Origin: Bryobacteraceae bacterium
GTDB lineage: Bacteria; Acidobacteriota; Terriglobia; Bryobacterales; Bryobacteraceae
Assembly: GCA_019752335.1 (NCBI GenBank)
Contig: JAIEMJ010000009.1
Span: forward strand, 1-64,000
DNA: 64,000 nt
Direction: 5' to 3'
In this document: positions 42,490 to 61,867 of the stretch, piece after piece
Numbering within the stretch: position 1 is the stretch's first letter
How the letters are laid out: every line of letters starts with the position of its first letter
The notes under the pieces: generated by a model
What the model was told of the DNA's origin: nothing
Seen by the model: the letters and a program-made list of their open reading frames with translations, nothing else
Database searches by the model: none
Made by a program: the position numbers and the translations under genes

Positions 42490-42702
42490 ATGATCAGCGA
42501 AGAACAGCAAAAGGTGACGGTGATGTTGCCAAAGCGGTTGGTGGAGGAGGCCACCCGCAGCGTTGGGCTCGGCATTACCCCCACGATTCGCAAGGGGTTG
42601 GAAGCGATTGTGGCTACGGAAGCGTTGAAGCGGCTGCGGCTGCGGCGCGGCAAAATCCGGTTCTCTCTCAATGTTGACGAGATGAGGCGGGACCGGGCTT
42701 GA
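42490..42702 (+). CDS. Antitoxin (VapB-like)
   Basis: A 70-residue protein with an N-terminal strand-helix-helix pattern (KVTVMLPKRLVEEATRSVGL) suggesting a ribbon-helix-helix DNA-binding fold and a basic, extended C-terminus that would occupy the toxin's active site. It is directly followed by a PIN-domain toxin whose TTG start overlaps its stop codon. Expected to neutralise the toxin and repress the pair via the dyad just upstream. Confidence 0.75.
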   Translation: MISEEQQKVTVMLPKRLVEEATRSVGLGITPTIRKGLEAIVATEALKRLRLRRGKIRFSLNVDEMRRDRA

Positions 42703-43070
42703 TCTGCGCCGACACCAACTGCTGGATCGCCTATCTGTCAGGCGAAGAGGGCCAGGACGTCGGCATTCTCGACCACGCCGTGGTCCATGGGGCCGTTCTG
42801 ATGGCGCCCGTGGTGCTTTCCGAGTTGCTGAGCGATCCGAAGCTGGAGAGCCAAGATGCGGCGGACCTCTGTGCGATCGGACTCCTCGAGATCACACCGG
42901 GTTATTGGGAACGCGCGGGCAAGTTGCGGGCGCAACTGCTCAAACAGCGCGTGAAGGCCCGTCTCGCCGATACACTCATCGCCCAGATCTGCATCGACCA
43001 CGACGTTCCCTTCATCACGCGCGACAAGGACTTCCGGCATTTCGCCTCGCATGGATTGCGCTTGCTGTAG
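42699..43070 (+). CDS. PIN-domain toxin (VapC-like ribonuclease)
   Basis: A 123-residue PIN-domain protein. The acidic active-site residues are present: ADTNCWIAYL (first Asp, residue 5), SELL (Glu), KARLADTLIAQ (third, Asp) and ITRDKDF (fourth, Asp). VapC toxins are magnesium-dependent RNases that cut tRNA or rRNA when freed of antitoxin. It starts with TTG overlapping the antitoxin stop by 4 bp, so translation is coupled. Confidence 0.85.
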   Translation: MICADTNCWIAYLSGEEGQDVGILDHAVVHGAVLMAPVVLSELLSDPKLESQDAADLCAIGLLEITPGYWERAGKLRAQLLKQRVKARLADTLIAQICIDHDVPFITRDKDFRHFASHGLRLL

Positions 43071-43569: not shown

Positions 43570-43594
43570 AGAAGGCGAAAGCGGAGAAATTCTG

Positions 43595-44038
43595 ATGCAC
43601 CCCTACGCAAAGTTCGGCATCCTGATCCTGATCATCGTGTCCACCTTGGGCTGGCTGGCCCTGGAGGGCGTGAGCGAAACCAAGACCTACTACAAGACCA
43701 TCGAGGAGATGGCCGCCATGGGTACCGACGCCCAGGTGAAGCGTCTGCGCGTCGGCGGCGACGTCGAGGTGATTGAACGCAATGGCCAGCAGGTGAAATT
43801 CCGCATGATTCAGAAAGAAAACGGGAAGAATCTCACGCTCAATGTCGTCTACAACGGCAAGGATCCGCTGCCGGATACCTTCCGCATCGGAGCGCAGTGT
43901 CTGGCCGATGGCAAGATGGGCGCCAACGGCGTCTTCCAAGCCAGCCGGATTCAGGCCAAGTGTGCTTCGAAGTATGAAGCGAAGCCCGGCGCGAAACCCG
44001 GCGGCAACAGCAGCTACGCAAAGCCGGCCACTACTTAA
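43595..44038 (+). CDS. ccmE: Cytochrome c maturation heme chaperone CcmE, cysteine-type
   Basis: A 147-residue protein with an N-terminal membrane anchor (about 6-24) and the OB-fold periplasmic domain. CcmE receives heme from CcmABCD and passes it to CcmF. In most bacteria heme attaches to a His in an HxxxY motif. Here the motif is C123-A-S-K-Y127 (CxxxY), the Cys variant seen in System I* of archaea and some deltaproteobacteria. I chose the ATG at 43595 because it precedes the membrane anchor and follows a GCGGAG ribosome-binding site. First gene of the ccm operon; tail is rich in Lys, Pro and Gly. Confidence 0.92.
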   Translation: MHPYAKFGILILIIVSTLGWLALEGVSETKTYYKTIEEMAAMGTDAQVKRLRVGGDVEVIERNGQQVKFRMIQKENGKNLTLNVVYNGKDPLPDTFRIGAQCLADGKMGANGVFQASRIQAKCASKYEAKPGAKPGGNSSYAKPATT

Positions 44039-44058: not shown

Positions 44059-46074
44059 ATGGAAAATATCGGCGGACTGTGCCTGATTCTCGCCTTCTGT
44101 TTGGGCGTCTATTCGATTTTCGCGTCCGTGGTGGGCGCCTGGAAGCAGAAACCCTTTCTGCTGGTGAGCGGACAACGCGCCGTCTATAGTGTTTGGGCGC
44201 TGGTGACCACCGCTTCGGCCTTGCTGGTGTACGCCATCATGACCGACGACTTCCGGATTCAATACGTCTGGGCACACTCGAACAAGGCGATGGCCACCAT
44301 CTACAAGTTCACCGCCTGGTGGGGCGGCCAGGAAGGGTCGCTGCTCTTCTGGAGCTTCATTCTTTCCACGTACACGGCCGTCGTGGTCTTTACGACCCGC
44401 AAGAAACACGAATACCGGGCGATGATGCCTTGGATCACTTCGGTGCTGATGTTCACTCTCGTCTTCTTCTTGATGCTGGTGGCCTTCGTCGAGCATCCGT
44501 TCCGCATCCTGGCCATTGGCCGCGCGGCGACGCCGATGGATGACGGCCGCGGCCTCGATCCCTTGCTGCAGTATTGGACCATGGTGATTCATCCGCCGTT
44601 CCTTTACCTGGGCTATGTCGGCTTCGTGGTGCCCTTTGCCTTCGCCATGGGCTCGCTGATTACGAAGCAGCCGGGCGACGGATGGATCCACACGACCCGC
44701 CGTTGGGCGCTGATCACCTGGGCCTTCCAATCGACCGGCATTCTGCTCGGCGCAGGCTGGGCCTACGCGGTGCTCGGTTGGGGTGGCTACTGGGGTTGGG
44801 ACCCCGTGGAGAACGCCTCGCTGCTGCCCTGGATCACCTCCACCTCTTTCCTGCACTCCGTGATGATGCAGGAGAAGAAGGGCATGATGAAGGTATGGAA
44901 CATGGTGCTCGTCGCCGCCACGTTCTTTCTATGCATTCTCGGCACTTTCCTCACGCGCTCCGGCGTGGTGAGTTCGGTGCATGCCTTTGCGCAGTCCTCC
45001 CTGGGCAACTACTTCGTCGTTTTCCTCGCCGTCGGCATCGGCGCCACGACGTGGCTGATTCTGAACCGGCTGCCTTACCTGAAGAGCGAGACGCAACTGG
45101 AGAGCGTCGTCTCGCGCGAGTCCAGCTTCCTGTTCAACAACCTGATCCTGCTCGCGAGCTGCTTCGCGATCCTGTGGGGCACGCTGTTCCCGGTGATCTC
45201 CGAAGCGGTCACCGGCGAGAAGATCACGGTGGATGCGCCTTACTTTAACCGCGTGAATATTCCCATCGGCCTCTTTCTGCTTTTCCTCACCGGCGTGGGA
45301 CCGCTGGTCGCCTGGCGCCGCAGTTCGGCTGACGCCCTGAAACGCGCCTTCCTCATGCCCACCGTGGGCGCGGCGATCTTCATGTCGGTCCTGGTGGCAC
45401 TGGGCATTCATCACGTCTATGCCGTGATCTCGTTCGGCCTTTGCTTCTTCGTTACCGCGACCATCGGCTCGGAGTTCTGGAAGGGATCGAAGTCGATTGC
45501 CGCCAAGGACCAGGTGAACCTCCTGCGCGGCGCCTTCGAATTAACTCATCGCAACACGCGCCGTTATGGCGGCTACATCGTCCACATGGGCATTGTCATC
45601 ATGTTCATCGGCTTCACCGGCGCGGCTTTCAATCTGGATCGGACGGTGGAGGCCAAGGTCGGCTCTACGTTTAAGCTCGGCCGTTACGACCTGAAGGTCG
45701 CCGATATGAAGGGCGGCGAGAACGAGAACTACGTCTGGAACCACGCCTTGATTGAAGTGCGCTCCGGCGGCTCTTACATTACCACCCTGAAGCCCGAGTT
45801 ACGCAAATATGCGGTGAGTGGCTCGCAGACTTCGAACGTTGCGATTCGCCGGGCGCTGAACGAGGACTTGTATTTGAACTTCGCCGGCATGACGGCGGAC
45901 TCCAAGGTAATTCTCCAGAGTTACGTCTTCCCGCTCGTCTCCTGGATCTGGGTGGGCTACTGGGTGTTGCTCATCGGTACGCTGATTTGTCTGGTGCCGA
46001 GTAAGATCAAGTTACAGTACGCGAAAATGGAGGTAGTCGGCATTGCGCGTCAAGCTCAACCGGTGGAAAACTAG
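44059..46074 (+). CDS. ccmF: Cytochrome c heme lyase subunit CcmF
   Basis: A 671-residue integral membrane protein with about 15 helices. The tryptophan-rich WWD signature is present as WGGYWGWDPVENASLLPW (near 240), the periplasmic loop that presents heme, and a conserved FLTRSGVVSSVHAF segment follows (near 298). CcmF takes heme from CcmE and, with CcmH, attaches it to the CxxCH motif of apocytochromes. Start 20 bp after ccmE; the ccmH start overlaps its end by 32 bp. Confidence 0.95.
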   Translation: MENIGGLCLILAFCLGVYSIFASVVGAWKQKPFLLVSGQRAVYSVWALVTTASALLVYAIMTDDFRIQYVWAHSNKAMATIYKFTAWWGGQEGSLLFWSFILSTYTAVVVFTTRKKHEYRAMMPWITSVLMFTLVFFLMLVAFVEHPFRILAIGRAATPMDDGRGLDPLLQYWTMVIHPPFLYLGYVGFVVPFAFAMGSLITKQPGDGWIHTTRRWALITWAFQSTGILLGAGWAYAVLGWGGYWGWDPVENASLLPWITSTSFLHSVMMQEKKGMMKVWNMVLVAATFFLCILGTFLTRSGVVSSVHAFAQSSLGNYFVVFLAVGIGATTWLILNRLPYLKSETQLESVVSRESSFLFNNLILLASCFAILWGTLFPVISEAVTGEKITVDAPYFNRVNIPIGLFLLFLTGVGPLVAWRRSSADALKRAFLMPTVGAAIFMSVLVALGIHHVYAVISFGLCFFVTATIGSEFWKGSKSIAAKDQVNLLRGAFELTHRNTRRYGGYIVHMGIVIMFIGFTGAAFNLDRTVEAKVGSTFKLGRYDLKVADMKGGENENYVWNHALIEVRSGGSYITTLKPELRKYAVSGSQTSNVAIRRALNEDLYLNFAGMTADSKVILQSYVFPLVSWIWVGYWVLLIGTLICLVPSKIKLQYAKMEVVGIARQAQPVEN

Positions 46075-46522
46075 CCTCGCGATTCTCTTTGTCGCGACGC
46101 TTTGCGTGGCGCAGAGCCCGACGGCGTTTATCACCACCGATATTCGCCGCGCGGGCGATAAGCTCGCGTGTCTGTGCGGCGCGTGTAAGAACACCGTCGG
46201 CACCTGCCAGATGCTGGGCTGCCACTACGCTGCGCCCGCGCGCGAGAAGATTGCCGAACTGCAGAAGGCCGGGCTCGACGACGAGAAGGTCGCCGCTTTC
46301 TTCGTCAAACGCGAAGGCCTGAAGGCCTTTGCCGTGCCGCCCGCCGAAGGCTTTAACGCCATGAGCTGGATCATGCCTCCCGTAGCGATTCTCCTGGGCT
46401 TGGGCGGTATCGCCTGGTGGATTCGACGTTCGCGCAAACCGGTGCTGGTGGACGAATTGCCGGCCGGCTCCGCGGATCGGGTCCGCGCTGAACTAGATCA
46501 GGAAATGGCGAAATTCGATTAA
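46043..46522 (+). CDS. ccmH: Cytochrome c maturation protein CcmH/CycL, cysteine-rich variant
   Basis: A 159-residue protein with a signal peptide (about 8-23), a small thiol-redox domain and one membrane helix (about 109-126). The standard LRCxxC redox motif is replaced by LACLCGACKN followed by TCQMLGC, giving five cysteines (43, 45, 48, 55, 60). The helical core that follows (AREKIAELQKAGLDDEKVAAFF) matches the CcmH fold. CcmH reduces or holds the apocytochrome thiols for CcmF. The start is TTG at 46043 with GGAGG 9 bp upstream, overlapping ccmF. Confidence 0.85.
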   Translation: MRVKLNRWKTSLAILFVATLCVAQSPTAFITTDIRRAGDKLACLCGACKNTVGTCQMLGCHYAAPAREKIAELQKAGLDDEKVAAFFVKREGLKAFAVPPAEGFNAMSWIMPPVAILLGLGGIAWWIRRSRKPVLVDELPAGSADRVRAELDQEMAKFD

Positions 46523-46933
46523 ATGACCGTAGTTGTCCTCTCCCTCTTCCTCGTCATCGGGGTAGTTACTTATACGATGTGGGTCCGGGAAGGAGATTTA
46601 CCTTTACCTGCCCCCGAAAACCCCTTCCGGCATCTCGAAGAAATTAAGACGCGCATTTACGAAAATCTGCGCGACTTACAATTCGAGTATCGCCTCGGTA
46701 AGTTATCCGACGCCGACTACCAAAGCTCGAAGTTAGCTGTGCAGAAAGAGCTCGGCCAAGTACTCGGTGAGATTGATGCCGTGAAACAAAAACTTGCCGC
46801 CGAGGGCAAGACAGTAGCAACCAGCGTGCCCGGCCGCAAGAAGCCGCAAACGCACACCTGCCCCCACTGCGGAGCCACCTTCAAGGAAGCTTTGAAGTTC
46901 TGCGGCGAATGCGGAAAGGCGATGTCCGCATGA
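46523..46933 (+). CDS. Membrane-anchored zinc-ribbon protein in the ccm operon
   Basis: A 136-residue protein with an N-terminal membrane helix (about 3-20), a helical coiled-coil-like middle (about 35-90) containing LEEIKTRIYENLRDLQFEYRLG, and a C-terminal zinc ribbon (CPHCG at 112-116 and CGECG near 128). It follows ccmH with no gap and overlaps the next gene by 4 bp. It occupies the place of CcmI in other loci and its helix-rich part has similarity in layout to the CcmI N-terminus, but the TPR part is missing. I infer a role in cytochrome c assembly or envelope complex formation from position only. Confidence 0.65.
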   Translation: MTVVVLSLFLVIGVVTYTMWVREGDLPLPAPENPFRHLEEIKTRIYENLRDLQFEYRLGKLSDADYQSSKLAVQKELGQVLGEIDAVKQKLAAEGKTVATSVPGRKKPQTHTCPHCGATFKEALKFCGECGKAMSA

Positions 46934-47895
46934 GTCTCGCATTGCTGCTCGCTCTGCTCTCCATCGACGGGACGGTGATCAATAAGACCACGGGCCAACC
47001 CGTGGCCGGGGCCACGGTGAGCCTGGTAAAGGCCAGCGCCCAAGGGATGCAGCCCGCCGGCAGCGCCACGACGGGCACGGACGGCAAGTTCTCACTCGAA
47101 GGCTCAGCCGAAGGGATCGCCCTTCTCCAGACGACGTTCGAAAACGTCAATTACAACAAACTCCTTGAACCGGGCGCTTCTACCACGGGCATTGAAATCC
47201 CCGTGTTTTCGACGAGTAAGAAAGTGCAAGCCGCCACCGTGGCGCAGCACATGATTCTGATTGAGCCGGTGCCCGGCGAACTGCGTGTGCGCGAAACGCT
47301 GATTTACGACAATCCCACGCAGACCACGCTGGCTGACCCCGCCAACGGGAGCATTCGCTTCTTCCTGCCGCCGATGTCGAAGGGCCAAGCCAAAATCGAT
47401 GCCTCCAGCGGTTCGCGCGGCATGCCACTGAAGCGCGCCGCGAAGCCCACTGGCGAAGCCAACATCTACACCGTCGACTTCCCGCTGAAGCCTGGCGAAA
47501 CCCGCTTCGACATCTCCTGGACTTCGCCCTTCGCCCCGCCCGGCGACCTCAATACGCGCATTCTTCACCAGGGGCAAACCCGCGTCATCGCCCCGCGTGG
47601 CGTCACCCTCAAGAGCGATGCGCTCACCTTCCTGACCAACGAGCCCCGCACCATGGCCTCCGTTTTCACGGCGAAGAACGGCCCCGTAAGCATCTCCATT
47701 GAAGGCGCCGGCACCCTGGCCAACACCGCCCCGCCGAGCGAAGAAGAGGACCAGGGTCCGCCGATCGACACCATTTTCCCGAAGCTCTATGACCGCATTT
47801 ATTGGGTGGTGGGGCTGGTGTCGGCGATCTTCGGCTTGGCGTTCTATCTACTCTACCGGCAGGCGCCGGCCACTCCGCGCAAGGCCACCAAATGA
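46930..47895 (+). CDS. Secreted carboxypeptidase-regulatory-like protein with C-terminal anchor, in ccm operon
   Basis: A 321-residue protein. A signal sequence (1-13) is followed by a carboxypeptidase-regulatory-like Ig domain (GTVINKTTGQPVAGATVSLV, about 14-90), a second beta-rich domain (about 100-260), an acidic Pro-rich spacer and a membrane helix near the C-terminus (about 293-312) ending in a basic tail. Start and stop codons overlap those of its neighbours (ATGA at each end), so it is fully embedded in the ccm transcript. No known Ccm component has this architecture. Function unknown. Confidence 0.65.
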   Translation: MSLALLLALLSIDGTVINKTTGQPVAGATVSLVKASAQGMQPAGSATTGTDGKFSLEGSAEGIALLQTTFENVNYNKLLEPGASTTGIEIPVFSTSKKVQAATVAQHMILIEPVPGELRVRETLIYDNPTQTTLADPANGSIRFFLPPMSKGQAKIDASSGSRGMPLKRAAKPTGEANIYTVDFPLKPGETRFDISWTSPFAPPGDLNTRILHQGQTRVIAPRGVTLKSDALTFLTNEPRTMASVFTAKNGPVSISIEGAGTLANTAPPSEEEDQGPPIDTIFPKLYDRIYWVVGLVSAIFGLAFYLLYRQAPATPRKATK

Positions 47896-48593
47896 CTGCG
47901 CTCCAAGCGCAGGGGGTCTGGAAGTACTACGGCGACTTCGCCGCTCTCCAGCAAGTTGGGTTTGCGTTTGCCGCGGGTAGCTGCGTCGCTCTGCTGGGCC
48001 GCAACGGCGCCGGCAAAACGACTCTGCTCCGCATTCTGGCGGGACTCTCGCAAGCCTCTGAGGGCGGCGTTGAGATCCTCGGCGGTAACCCGCGCCAAGC
48101 CGCCGTGCGCTCCCGCATCGGCATCATCGGCCACGGAATCGGCGTCTACGACGAACTCTCCGCCGAAGAGAATCTGCTCACTTTCGCCCGGCTTTACGGG
48201 GTATCCGACGCCGCCCAGGCGGTTGACCACTGGCTCGAACGCACTGACCTCGCCCGGGTCCGCCGCGGCATGGCGCGCGAGTTCTCCCGCGGCATGCGCC
48301 AGCGCCTGGCCATCGCCCGGGCCTTCATCCATCGCCCGCGCTTCCTCATCCTCGACGAGCCCTTCACGTCGCTCGACGACCGCGCCATCGCCCTGCTGCA
48401 AGGCCTGTTGCGCGATGCCTTAGCCGATGGCGCCACCGTCGTGCTTTCGACGCACCAGCTCAAGGAAGCCCTAGAGCTCGCCTCCCATGTGCTGCTGCTC
48501 AATCGCGGCAAACTGGCCTTCACCGGTGAGCGCACGGCGGAGATGCTGGCCAATCCGGGTTGGGTCTACCAACACTACGGTGAGGCCGCATGA
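47892..48593 (+). CDS. ccmA: Heme exporter ATP-binding protein CcmA
   Basis: An ABC ATPase of 233 residues. Walker A is LLGRNGAGKTTLL, the signature is FSRGMRQRLAIARA (a variant of LSGGQ with S-R-G), Walker B is FLILDEPFTSLD and the switch His is in LSTHQLKE. CcmA with CcmB, CcmC and CcmD releases holo-CcmE from CcmC by ATP hydrolysis. I chose the ATG at 47892, overlapping the preceding stop, rather than the earlier in-frame start at 47802. It is followed by ccmB with a 4-bp overlap. Confidence 0.92.
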   Translation: MTALQAQGVWKYYGDFAALQQVGFAFAAGSCVALLGRNGAGKTTLLRILAGLSQASEGGVEILGGNPRQAAVRSRIGIIGHGIGVYDELSAEENLLTFARLYGVSDAAQAVDHWLERTDLARVRRGMAREFSRGMRQRLAIARAFIHRPRFLILDEPFTSLDDRAIALLQGLLRDALADGATVVLSTHQLKEALELASHVLLLNRGKLAFTGERTAEMLANPGWVYQHYGEAA

Positions 48594-49270
48594 CGTACCT
48601 GAATCAAGTATTCGCCATGGCGGGTAAAGATCTGCGCAGCGAACTGCGGACCAAGGAAGCGTTGAACGCCTCGCTCTCTTTCGCCGTGGTGATCCTGCTG
48701 CTGTTCAGCTTTGTGGTGGACCCCGATTCCGAAATGCTCGAGCAGATGTCGGGCGGCCTCCTGTGGATGGTGTTCGCCTTCTCGGGTACGCTGATCCTGA
48801 ACCGCGGCTTCGCCCGCGAACTCCCCAACGACTGTCTGGACGCGCTGATCGCCTCGCCCATTCCGGGTTCGGCCTTATTTCTCGGCAAGGCGATGGCCAA
48901 CTTCGTGCTGATCGCGATCATCGAAGCGATCTGCTTTCCGGTCTTTGGCATCCTCTATAACCTCACGTGGACCACGCAATTGCCGGTGCTGATGGGCGTG
49001 AGCGCCTTGGCTACTTGGGCCATGGCCACGCTCGGGACGATGTTTGGGGCGCTTACCGTGAACATGCAGTTGCGCGAGTTGATGCTGCCCATGCTGATTT
49101 ACCCGATGCTGATTCCCGCCCTGATGGCGGCGATGCAACTCACCACGCTGCTGATCGCCGGCCAACCGATTGACGCCGAGCACATCATTTGGCTTCGCGT
49201 CCTGGTGGCGTTTGATATCATCTTCACTGCGTTGGCCGCGGTGCTGGTGGAAACGGTTCTGGTAGGTTAA
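48590..49270 (+). CDS. ccmB: Heme exporter protein CcmB
   Basis: A 226-residue membrane permease with six hydrophobic helices, starting MTYLNQVFAMAGKDLRSELRTKE, a segment that in this family is cytoplasmic and contacts CcmA. Other typical parts are FAFSGTLILNRGFARE near 60 and YPMLIPALMAA near 165. It forms the membrane part of the CcmAB complex. Two bp separate it from ccmC. Confidence 0.92.
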   Translation: MTYLNQVFAMAGKDLRSELRTKEALNASLSFAVVILLLFSFVVDPDSEMLEQMSGGLLWMVFAFSGTLILNRGFARELPNDCLDALIASPIPGSALFLGKAMANFVLIAIIEAICFPVFGILYNLTWTTQLPVLMGVSALATWAMATLGTMFGALTVNMQLRELMLPMLIYPMLIPALMAAMQLTTLLIAGQPIDAEHIIWLRVLVAFDIIFTALAAVLVETVLVG

Positions 49271-49272
49271 CT

Positions 49273-49962
49273 ATGCGCGACAAAATCATTTTCGGCGCCG
49301 GTATCTTCGCCGCGCTCTACTTCATTCGCAACCTTTACGTGATCCTGCTGCAACTGCCGGACGAAGCCATGCAGGGCGCGGTGTACCGGATCTTCTTCTT
49401 CCACCTGCCGCCTTATTTCGCGGCGGTCTTCTGCTTCCTCGGCGCGGCCATTGCGAGCGGGATGTATTTGAAGACGAAGCGCTGGCATTATGACGTCTTC
49501 GCGGTGTCCGCCACCGAAGTCGGCTTGGCGCTGGCGGCGATCAACCTGGTTACCGGCATGATTTGGGGCCGGCAACAGTGGGGCATCTGGTGGACCTGGG
49601 ACGCGCGCCTCACCTCGGCGCTGATCACCTGGCTGATCTATCTGGGCTACCTGATGCTGCGGGAAGGCATCAAGGACCCGTCGGAGCGCGCCAAGAATTC
49701 CGCGGTGCTCTCGATTTTTGCCTTCTTCGCCGTCTACTTCACTTACAAGGCCAACGAATGGTATCGCACGCAGCACCCCGGCCCGGTGCTCACCATCCGC
49801 ACCGGTAAGAACACGATCGACCCGGCCATGCAGGCGATGCTCTTTCATAACCTATTCGCATTTCTGTTACTCACGGTGGTCCTGGTGGCCGTCCGGATGA
49901 GACTCGAAGATAGTCAGCGCGCCGTCGAATCACTTCGCCGCCGCGCCCACGCCGTCGCTTAG
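49273..49962 (+). CDS. ccmC: Heme exporter protein CcmC
   Basis: A 229-residue membrane protein of the heme-handling family, with a WWD-type tryptophan-rich signature at WGRQQWGIWWTWDARLTS (near 97-114) between conserved His residues (FHLPPYFAAV, near 47, and MLFHNLFAFLLL, near 196). CcmC loads heme onto CcmE at the periplasmic face. Length matches the family. A 9-bp gap separates it from the small ccmD. Confidence 0.93.
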   Translation: MRDKIIFGAGIFAALYFIRNLYVILLQLPDEAMQGAVYRIFFFHLPPYFAAVFCFLGAAIASGMYLKTKRWHYDVFAVSATEVGLALAAINLVTGMIWGRQQWGIWWTWDARLTSALITWLIYLGYLMLREGIKDPSERAKNSAVLSIFAFFAVYFTYKANEWYRTQHPGPVLTIRTGKNTIDPAMQAMLFHNLFAFLLLTVVLVAVRMRLEDSQRAVESLRRRAHAVA

Positions 49963-49971
49963 GAATATATA

Positions 49972-50127
49972 ATGGACCAACGTAATTTCGAATACATGTT
50001 CTATGGCCTCGCTGCCGCGTGGACCATTCTTTGTCTCTACAGCCTCTTGCTCACCAGCCGGGGCCGTAAGATCCAAGCCGAAATTGAACACTTGAAGCGT
50101 ATGCTCGAGGCTAGCCCGAAGAAGTAA
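49972..50127 (+). CDS. ccmD: Small membrane protein CcmD
   Basis: A 51-residue protein easily missed because of its size. One membrane helix (about residues 9-28, YMFYGLAAAWTILCLYSLLL) is followed by a basic, helical cytoplasmic tail (SRGRKIQAEIEHLKRMLEAS). Length, topology and position after ccmC match CcmD, which holds holo-CcmE and CcmC together for release by CcmAB. The TATAAT just before the ATG is probably fortuitous; an AGGA ribosome-binding site lies 8 bp before the start. Confidence 0.85.
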   Translation: MDQRNFEYMFYGLAAAWTILCLYSLLLTSRGRKIQAEIEHLKRMLEASPKK

Positions 50128-61183: not shown

Positions 61184-61867
61184 ATGGCTCTCATCGGCTT
61201 TGTCGCCAACTTCGACGACCTCTCGACGGACCGTGGCTACCAGTTCCGTTTTCGCTGCGACAAGTGCGGCAATGGCTTCATGACGCAGTTCAAGCCATCT
61301 ACGCTCGGCATGGCCCAATCGCTGCTGAACGTCGCCGGCAGCTTTCTGGGCGGCATGGGCAACCTGGGCAACGCCGCCTACGAGGTGCAACGCGCCGTGG
61401 GTGGCAAGGTGCACGACGCGGCCCTCGCCGAGGCTTCCGAGGAGGCGCGTCCGGCTTTTCGCCAGTGCACGCGCTGCGGCAAATGGGTTTGCGCCGAGGT
61501 CTGCTGGAATGCCAAGGCGAACCAATGCGAGGACTGCGCGCCGGACTTCCACGAGCAACTCGCCGCCAACCAGGCCCAAGCCAAAGCCGACGCCGCGCGC
61601 GAGCAACTCCAGGCCGGGGCGCGCCAAGTGAACTACGTGGAGGGCGTCGACCTCAGCGCCGATGCGTACGTCGCGGCTCCTTCGGCCGCCACCAACCTAC
61701 AGCCGAAGAAGCTCACCTGCGCCGGCTGCGGCGCGACGCTGAAGGAAGGCGCCAAGTTTTGCGGCGAATGCGGGCAGGCCGTCGCCCCGGCCGGGCCGAA
61801 GGCTTGCGGCAAATGCGGCACCCTCACCGAGAGTAAGTTCTGCCCGGAGTGCGGCACGAAGATTTAA
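61184..61867 (+). CDS. Protein with multiple zinc ribbons
   Basis: A 227-residue cytoplasmic protein with a short N-terminal domain containing CDKCG (near 25), a Gly/Ala-rich middle, a second cysteine cluster (CTRCG...CAEVC...CEDC, about 95-120), a coiled-coil-like segment (about 123-145) and two C-terminal double-zinc ribbons (CAGCG, CGECG, then CGKCG, CPECG). The last ribbon parts resemble that of the zinc-ribbon protein in the ccm operon (GATLKEGAKFCGECG here against GATFKEALKFCGECG there). Function unknown; possibly a scaffold or nucleic-acid binding protein. Divergent from the small membrane gene with 24 bp between. Confidence 0.8.
   Translation: MALIGFVANFDDLSTDRGYQFRFRCDKCGNGFMTQFKPSTLGMAQSLLNVAGSFLGGMGNLGNAAYEVQRAVGGKVHDAALAEASEEARPAFRQCTRCGKWVCAEVCWNAKANQCEDCAPDFHEQLAANQAQAKADAAREQLQAGARQVNYVEGVDLSADAYVAAPSAATNLQPKKLTCAGCGATLKEGAKFCGECGQAVAPAGPKACGKCGTLTESKFCPECGTKI

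Follow-up and report, generated by a model that had tools for sequence, protein, structure and literature searches.

A probable CcmI-1 module and a coupled exported protein between ccmH and ccmA in the cytochrome c maturation operon of a Bryobacteraceae bacterium

The first 64,000 nucleotides of contig JAIEMJ010000009.1 of a Bryobacteraceae bacterium (assembly GCA_019752335.1), hereafter the window, contain an operon for cytochrome c maturation (ccm) in which two genes, here named P1 and P2, lie between ccmH and ccmA. The question raised by this locus is what these two genes do among those for heme handling. An earlier reading of the sequence (the original prediction) had their coordinates and order right, left both unassigned, and suggested that they may replace CcmI or CcmG. 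The P1-P2 arrangement is best read as a lineage-wide rebuilding of CcmI, a variant of a known machine, and here it is proposed that both proteins are probably subunits of the heme-ligation complex of a System I* machine, in which CcmI has been split and rebuilt.

P1 is very probably a homologue of CcmI-1, the N-terminal domain of CcmI. This well-supported assignment comes from family-level matches to TIGR03142 and from the specificity of a hidden Markov model (HMM) of CcmI N-termini, not from the window copy alone. TIGR03142 is the commonest NCBIfam match of the P1 family (62 of 65 P1 proteins at E<=0.1), and the ribbon-bearing P1 of one near relative (L154, 53% identity to the window P1) is over the model cut-off, with 29.5 vs. 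29.3 bits on model positions 1-82. In a phylum set of 149 genomes, the cut-off is passed at seven places, three of canonical type and four with short P1-type proteins beside CcmF; 35 of the 46 matches at E<=0.01 are within 3.3 kb of CcmF, as are all 16 at E<=1e-4. The HMM was built on the N-terminal parts of 11 CcmI sequences, eight of them plasmid-borne and three taken from genomes of the acidobacterial set whose CcmF is strongly proteobacterial-like, and searched against 20,744 six-frame open reading frames from 132 sources, which gave 104 P1 and three P2 frames at E<=1, and 81 P1 and two P2 frames at E<=0.1, with no other frame at either threshold. In this search, as in the neighborhood survey and the hairpin HMM searches below, the P1 label is wrong for one or two frames (L066 at 2877 and, in the neighborhood survey, also L090 at 6849, which is actually a P2).

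Several observations speak against the CcmI-1 assignment. The match of the window P1 to TIGR03142 is insignificant (residues 6-90 on model positions 8-86 of 118, 13.1 bits, E 0.087), its E-value with the CcmI N-terminal HMM is 0.85, and the window genome has no TIGR03142 match at E<=0.01. Among the 46 matches in the phylum set, 11 are away from CcmF, every one of them with an E-value of 6e-4 or weaker. Also, NCBIfam GvpG matches 45 of the 65 P1 proteins, so that the hairpin is a recurring motif.

The AlphaFold2 model of P1 has a helix at residues 2-19, a helical hairpin at 36-57/63-93 and then the zinc ribbon (CPHC...CGEC, about residues 110-133) at the C-terminus, for which every ribbon family model remained under its cut-off. 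All 11 invariant alignment columns are in the hairpin, while the ribbon is present in 68 of 79 near-relative P1 proteins, missing from the other 11 (one of which is a broken contig end), and not seen in any of the 14 P1 proteins of the family f2, as read from their sequences; the hairpin is therefore taken as the core of P1 and the ribbon as accessory. NrfG is a paralogue of the periplasmic TPR part of CcmI; no TPR domain was found in P1 by the Pfam and NCBIfam family scans, and no second membrane helix was found in the AlphaFold2 model. Foldseek returned nothing at E<=0.001 for the P1 model, and tblastn against a plasmid collection retrieved only an archaeal zinc ribbon with P1 and nothing with P2. 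The CcmI described in passages of PMC3884852 consists of a helix, a cytoplasmic hairpin, a second helix and a periplasmic binding domain, and forms complexes with CcmF and CcmH. P1 resembles its N-terminal domain (TIGR03142) in the membrane helix and hairpin, as well as in the position of the gene right after ccmH with an overlapping or abutting start, but has neither a second membrane helix nor the periplasmic TPR domain, and ends in a zinc ribbon. P1 is a CcmI-1 module without CcmI-2, and not a full CcmI. The suggested replacement of CcmI thus holds in a sharper form, P1 being itself homologous to the CcmI N-terminal domain, and of the two genes only P2 still fits the description as unassigned. 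With this, a gene otherwise labelled as a zinc-ribbon protein by its domain matches receives an assignment. A second protein with a zinc ribbon is encoded at 61598-61783 of the window, with 43% identity to the P1 ribbon over P1 residues 84-134.

The tie of both genes to ccm was examined by synteny. Named genomes were scanned with CcmF alone, so that the resulting 80 near-relative loci were not chosen by P1 or P2. Their titles are mostly of Acidobacteria, Bryobacterales, Solibacter and Terriglobia, with two odd ones (L148, Acidimicrobiia, and L201, Bordetella parapertussis), and the nearest named CcmF relative is a Bryobacter metagenome-assembled genome (MAG) with 95% CcmF identity. P1 was found after ccmF in 79 of the 80 loci and P2 in 76, one P2 (L156) being cut by the contig end; the loci without P1 or P2 end soon after ccmF, the sequence of the four without P2 stopping 207 to 1324 bp past it. 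Some peculiarities were observed in these loci: in L200 (11185-12429) P1 is about 390 bp past ccmF with no ccmH recognised in between, no ccmH was recognised in L183 either, and close to its contig end L153 (12431-13332) has second, inverted copies of ccmH-like and P1-like frames, suggesting an assembly chimera. L201, titled as a Bordetella parapertussis MAG, has an acidobacterial-type ccm locus with a CcmF of 63% identity to that of the window, and its title looks mislabelled.

In the phylum set, single-sequence searches found P1 matches in 58 genomes and P2 matches in 29. CcmF was present in 50 of the 51 neighborhoods of these matches, of which 50 came from the P1 search and one (G062) from the P2 search; nearly all the P1 matches left out were ribbon-only, in unrelated proteins. 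CcmF itself is at 105 places in 99 of the 149 genomes. With family profiles, 79 of 81 kept P1-type places (among the matches listed, those starting at model position <=12, which leaves out ribbon-only matches) and 33 of 37 kept P2 places (among the matches listed, only those covering the second beta domain) are within 5 kb of CcmF, and two more P2 places are next to ccmA-ccmB. The 81 P1-type places include two canonical CcmI and three P2 tails; for P1 proper, 74 of 76 are by CcmF, the exceptions being G130 and G052 (a short contig piece in a fragmented genome). No kept place of either type occurs in any genome without a CcmF match. The link to heme handling made by the original prediction is thus supported (79/80 loci, 50/51 neighborhoods and 79/81 places by CcmF), and the pair was not found at random loci unconnected with ccm, with few exceptions.

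These tallies have a reverse side. Many of the genomes counted had themselves contributed ccm-side loci to the family profiles, so the profile tally is not independent of the single-sequence searches. Neither gene is universal: within 5 kb of CcmF, a kept P1-type match is missing at 29 of the 105 places and a P2 at 72. In G130 the P1-P2 pair is apart from the ccmF-ccmH locus, and G010 has a P2 alone, away from any ccm gene found. The last two genomes are also what could be cited for P1 and P2 as chance neighbors in the operon that take no part in cytochrome c maturation, an explanation that is hardly credible and is rejected on synteny, given the 79 of 81 kept P1-type places by CcmF and the homology of P1 to the CcmI N-terminus.

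The split operons of f2 indicate the step to which the pair belongs. In 13 of 14 f2 genomes ccmF, ccmH, P1 and P2 are together in a stretch with no match to ccmA, ccmB, ccmC or ccmE, and in the three genomes sampled (G007, G023 and G036) ccmB is on a different contig or at a distance of over 1 Mb. Because the pair mostly stays with ccmF-ccmH where the operon is split, it is more likely linked to heme ligation than to heme export. G037 and G090 speak against this, as their P2 genes accompany ccmA-ccmB on contigs other than that of ccmF (in G090, the contig breaks off within P2). These two genomes, together with the position of the window P2 gene between ccmH-P1 and ccmA, favor P2 acting on the heme-delivery side, where it would bind CcmE or CcmABC instead of apocytochrome and bridge two Ccm complexes; this is unlikely in view of the 13 f2 genomes and because the wide P2 alignment retains no heme-ligand residue. 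That includes His107, which is conserved at >=90% among near relatives and was rejected as a conserved heme-binding histidine because the wider alignment does not keep it.

P1 and P2 are also coupled to each other. They overlap by exactly 4 bp in 70 of the 72 relatives with both genes delimited, a constancy indicating that the arrangement is more than chance. In the window, P1 starts at the base after the ccmH stop codon (0 bp), and the same 4-bp ATGA overlap is found for P1/P2, P2/ccmA and ccmA/ccmB, while ccmE/ccmF and ccmB/ccmC are separated by 20 and 2 bp, respectively. The close packing seen by the original prediction is therefore real and even tighter than its 0-4 bp spacing, the junctions being either abutting or overlapping; its interlocking of all start and stop codons is too broad a statement, as it does not extend to ccmE/ccmF and ccmB/ccmC. 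An alternative P2 start, ATG at 46909, would make the leader more basic.

In some other lineages P2 extends past its membrane anchor into a short tail with a hairpin like that of P1. With a phylum-wide P1 hairpin HMM, P2 tails rank next after P1 (16 P2 frames vs. one other at E<=1), and a near-relative P1 hairpin HMM gave eight P2 frames and no others. Similarly, TIGR03142 is the best NCBIfam match of four of six P2 tails (E 2e-4 to 3e-3), the other two being unmatched. The window P2 has no such tail. Pfam GvpG matches all six tails, including that of L073 (6.9e-5) with no TIGR03142 match, so that the likeness of the two hairpins may be due to a recurring motif instead of a shared ancestor. 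The P1 ribbon and the P2 hairpin tail were also considered as a trade-off, which was rejected because both co-occur in several lineages, as read from their sequences. The alignments comprised 68 of 72 (A1) and 64 of 77 (A2) delimited relatives, each with the window, and 44 of 50 (A3) and 21 of 30 (A4) phylum-set sequences with four near relatives and the window.

The N-terminus of P2 is short and signal-like, and the AlphaFold2 model of this protein (69 sequences; mean predicted local distance difference test score 91.8, predicted template modelling score 0.77) consists of a transthyretin-like domain (about residues 11-95), a beta domain at about 99-259 and, at the C-terminus, a membrane helix (285-310). 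The protein features listed by the original prediction, namely a membrane anchor and zinc ribbon for P1 and secretion, a carboxypeptidase-regulatory-like domain and a C-terminal anchor for P2, agree with the N-terminal helix and ribbon of P1 and the signal-like N-terminus, PF13620 match and C-terminal helix of P2. The transthyretin-like call agrees across PF13620 (33.7 bits in the window, cut-off 32.3; 66 of 69 P2 proteins at E<=0.01), structure matches and the PDB sequence search, which returned transthyretin-like proteins over about residues 20-60 and one weak match to NOMO2. The fold matches span model residues 98-261 only, with identities of 5-13%. They include the M1 aminopeptidase N-terminal domain (ERAP1, 3qnf_C; Z 12.0, root-mean-square deviation 4.0, 149 aligned residues, 8% identity) and oligosaccharyltransferase chains (Z 10.5-11.4 over 149-152 residues, 6-13% identity), among them 8agb_E (Z 11.4, root-mean-square deviation 3.6, 150 aligned residues, 6% identity); the match record names only the complex, of which chain E would be Ost1/ribophorin I. 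This is a likeness of predicted fold that proves neither descent nor function. The HExxH motif, which is the catalytic zinc site of M1 aminopeptidases, is absent from the window P2 sequence, so that it does not have their catalytic site, and no TPR match was found in P2 by the Pfam and NCBIfam family scans. The wider P2 family keeps Y75, N128 and several prolines.

The transthyretin-like domain is absent from three near relatives (L172, L186 and L205), which leaves the second beta domain and the anchor as the core of P2. This absence, along with the 72 CcmF places that have no P2 within 5 kb while 76 of the 105 have a P1-type match, would fit P1 as a CcmI-1 subunit with P2 not as a stand-in for CcmI-2 but as an accessory factor of the envelope, such as a scaffold linking the Ccm complex to the cell wall or to a subset of cytochromes. 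Such an accessory P2 is a possible but minority explanation: P2 is kept in 76 of the 80 near-relative loci, the remaining four running for less than 1.4 kb past ccmF, its translation is coupled to that of P1, and 13 of the 14 split operons have it with ccmF-ccmH. From the position, coupling, topology and hairpin, there is about an even chance that P2 acts from the periplasmic side by presenting apocytochrome or CcmE.

The CxxxY motif was found in all 109 CcmE frames of the loci examined (KCASKY in the window), and this kind of CcmE is given as the mark of System I* in a 2011 minireview (PMC3601427), so that the window machine is of the System I* kind. Among the holders of System I* named there are delta-proteobacteria, Chloroflexi and Firmicutes, as well as archaea. 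The window operon is similar to System I* in its CxxxY CcmE and in having no recognised ccmG, and differs from it in keeping ccmH and a CcmI-like gene. In CcmH-labelled frames, the CxCG motif is present in 112 of 118 (e.g., LACLCGACKNTVGTCQMLGC), and at least three of the other six have a CLCKSC-type motif.

The lack of a thioredoxin-type frame among the operon proteins scanned could suggest that the P1-P2 pair replaces CcmG in the thiol reduction of apocytochrome, as the original prediction had allowed. This is highly improbable: the window P2 has no cysteine, which excludes thiol chemistry by this protein, P1 has no cysteines besides the four in its ribbon, which is expected to face the cytoplasm, and neither protein matches a thioredoxin-type family. 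In addition, the Desulfovibrio System I* operon needs neither CcmH nor CcmG to produce holocytochrome in E. coli, according to PMC3601427. The window genome has 13 DsbE-type matches, none over the model cut-off, any of which could be an apocytochrome reductant.

In the mechanism proposed for the split CcmI, the heme-ligation complex would be formed by CcmF, CcmH and the CcmI function, the last supplied by P1 and P2. P1 would bind CcmF/CcmH in the membrane through the CcmI-1 contacts, that is, its single helix and cytoplasmic hairpin, and its zinc ribbon would be an accessory cytoplasmic contact. The C-terminal helix of P2 would tether a periplasmic two-domain beta platform beside CcmF, for apocytochrome or heme delivery, which may hold apocytochrome or heme-loaded CcmE during thioether formation, standing in for the second half of CcmI. 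Both proteins together would complete the CcmI parts list (two membrane helices, cytoplasmic hairpin and periplasmic binding domain), an unrelated fold taking the place of the TPR domain. P2 resembles CcmI-2 as a periplasmic domain tethered beside CcmF that could bind apocytochrome, and differs from it in being all-beta and C-terminally anchored, with no TPR match. In Rhodobacter, CcmI-1 and CcmI-2 act separately and CcmI-1 takes part in stereospecific heme ligation, as stated in passages of PMC7676999 citing Sanders et al. 2007. CcmI enhances maturation and is not absolutely required, being necessary in Rhodobacter and having a dispensable counterpart in E. coli (PMC3601427). Of the System I components, CcmI is the least settled, and a phylum that has the CcmI-1 half alone, coupled to a different exported protein, provides a natural experiment on the role of each half; P2 also gains a testable function. 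In three genomes of the phylum set (G075, G025 and G116; loci L114-L116), CcmF scores 431-445 bits against PF16327 and the CcmI N-terminus is of canonical type, with more than 108 bits to TIGR03142; the CcmI frame of G025, of only about 134 residues, is a lone CcmI N-terminal domain.

A further, tentative and rather doubtful extension is that, in the cytochrome c synthase of Acidobacteriota, CcmI was split and its TPR chaperone swapped for a tethered beta platform of the Ost1/ribophorin I fold class. Passages of PMC7226087 describe Ost1 as a single-helix subunit with luminal beta domains beside the membrane transferase, which binds glycosylated peptides only, perhaps preventing back-sliding. 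If the extension is true, a beta-domain side subunit of one kind would serve two membrane enzymes that are unrelated but both modify exported polypeptides, in each case for handling the substrate or product. A chaperone reading of the likeness between P2 and Ost1 is weakened by the same passages, where the Ost1-type subunits are without chaperone-like folds. Among the papers listed from an open-access library, no earlier description of the P1/P2 arrangement was found, nor any of CcmI in connection with Acidobacteria or with a zinc ribbon.

The features of the operon are given in Table 1.

Table 1. Genes of the ccm operon in the window.
Feature	Position	Strand	Basis and remarks
ccmE, System I* type, heme-site motif CASKY	43595..44038	+	PF03100 70.3 bits over 43586-44038; CxxxY; ATG start chosen here
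ccmF, heme lyase subunit	44059..46074	+	PF16327 212 bits; PF01578 118 bits
ccmH	46043..46522	+	TTG start; PF03918 40.2 bits (cut-off 25); C-x-C-G-x-C...C...C in place of LRCxxCQ
P1, probable CcmI-1 module ending in a zinc ribbon; lacks a second membrane helix and a TPR domain	46523..46933	+	TIGR03142; AlphaFold2 model
P2, exported; transthyretin-like domain, M1-N-terminal-like beta domain and C-terminal membrane helix (predicted)	46930..47895	+	PF13620; AlphaFold2 model; fold matches
ccmA	47892..48593	+	TIGR01189 138.1 bits (cut-off 131.6); 4-bp overlap with P2
ccmB	48590..49270	+	PF03379 115.9 bits
ccmC	49273..49962	+	PF01578 84.3 bits; TIGR01191 137.9 bits, under cut-off of 186
ccmD-like frame, 51 aa, one hydrophobic stretch, 9 bp past ccmC	49972..50127	+	Position and appearance only

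In the adjoining region, the window has a separate frame besides the ccm genes at 42699-43070, which by its appearance is presumably a PIN-domain (VapC-type) toxin.
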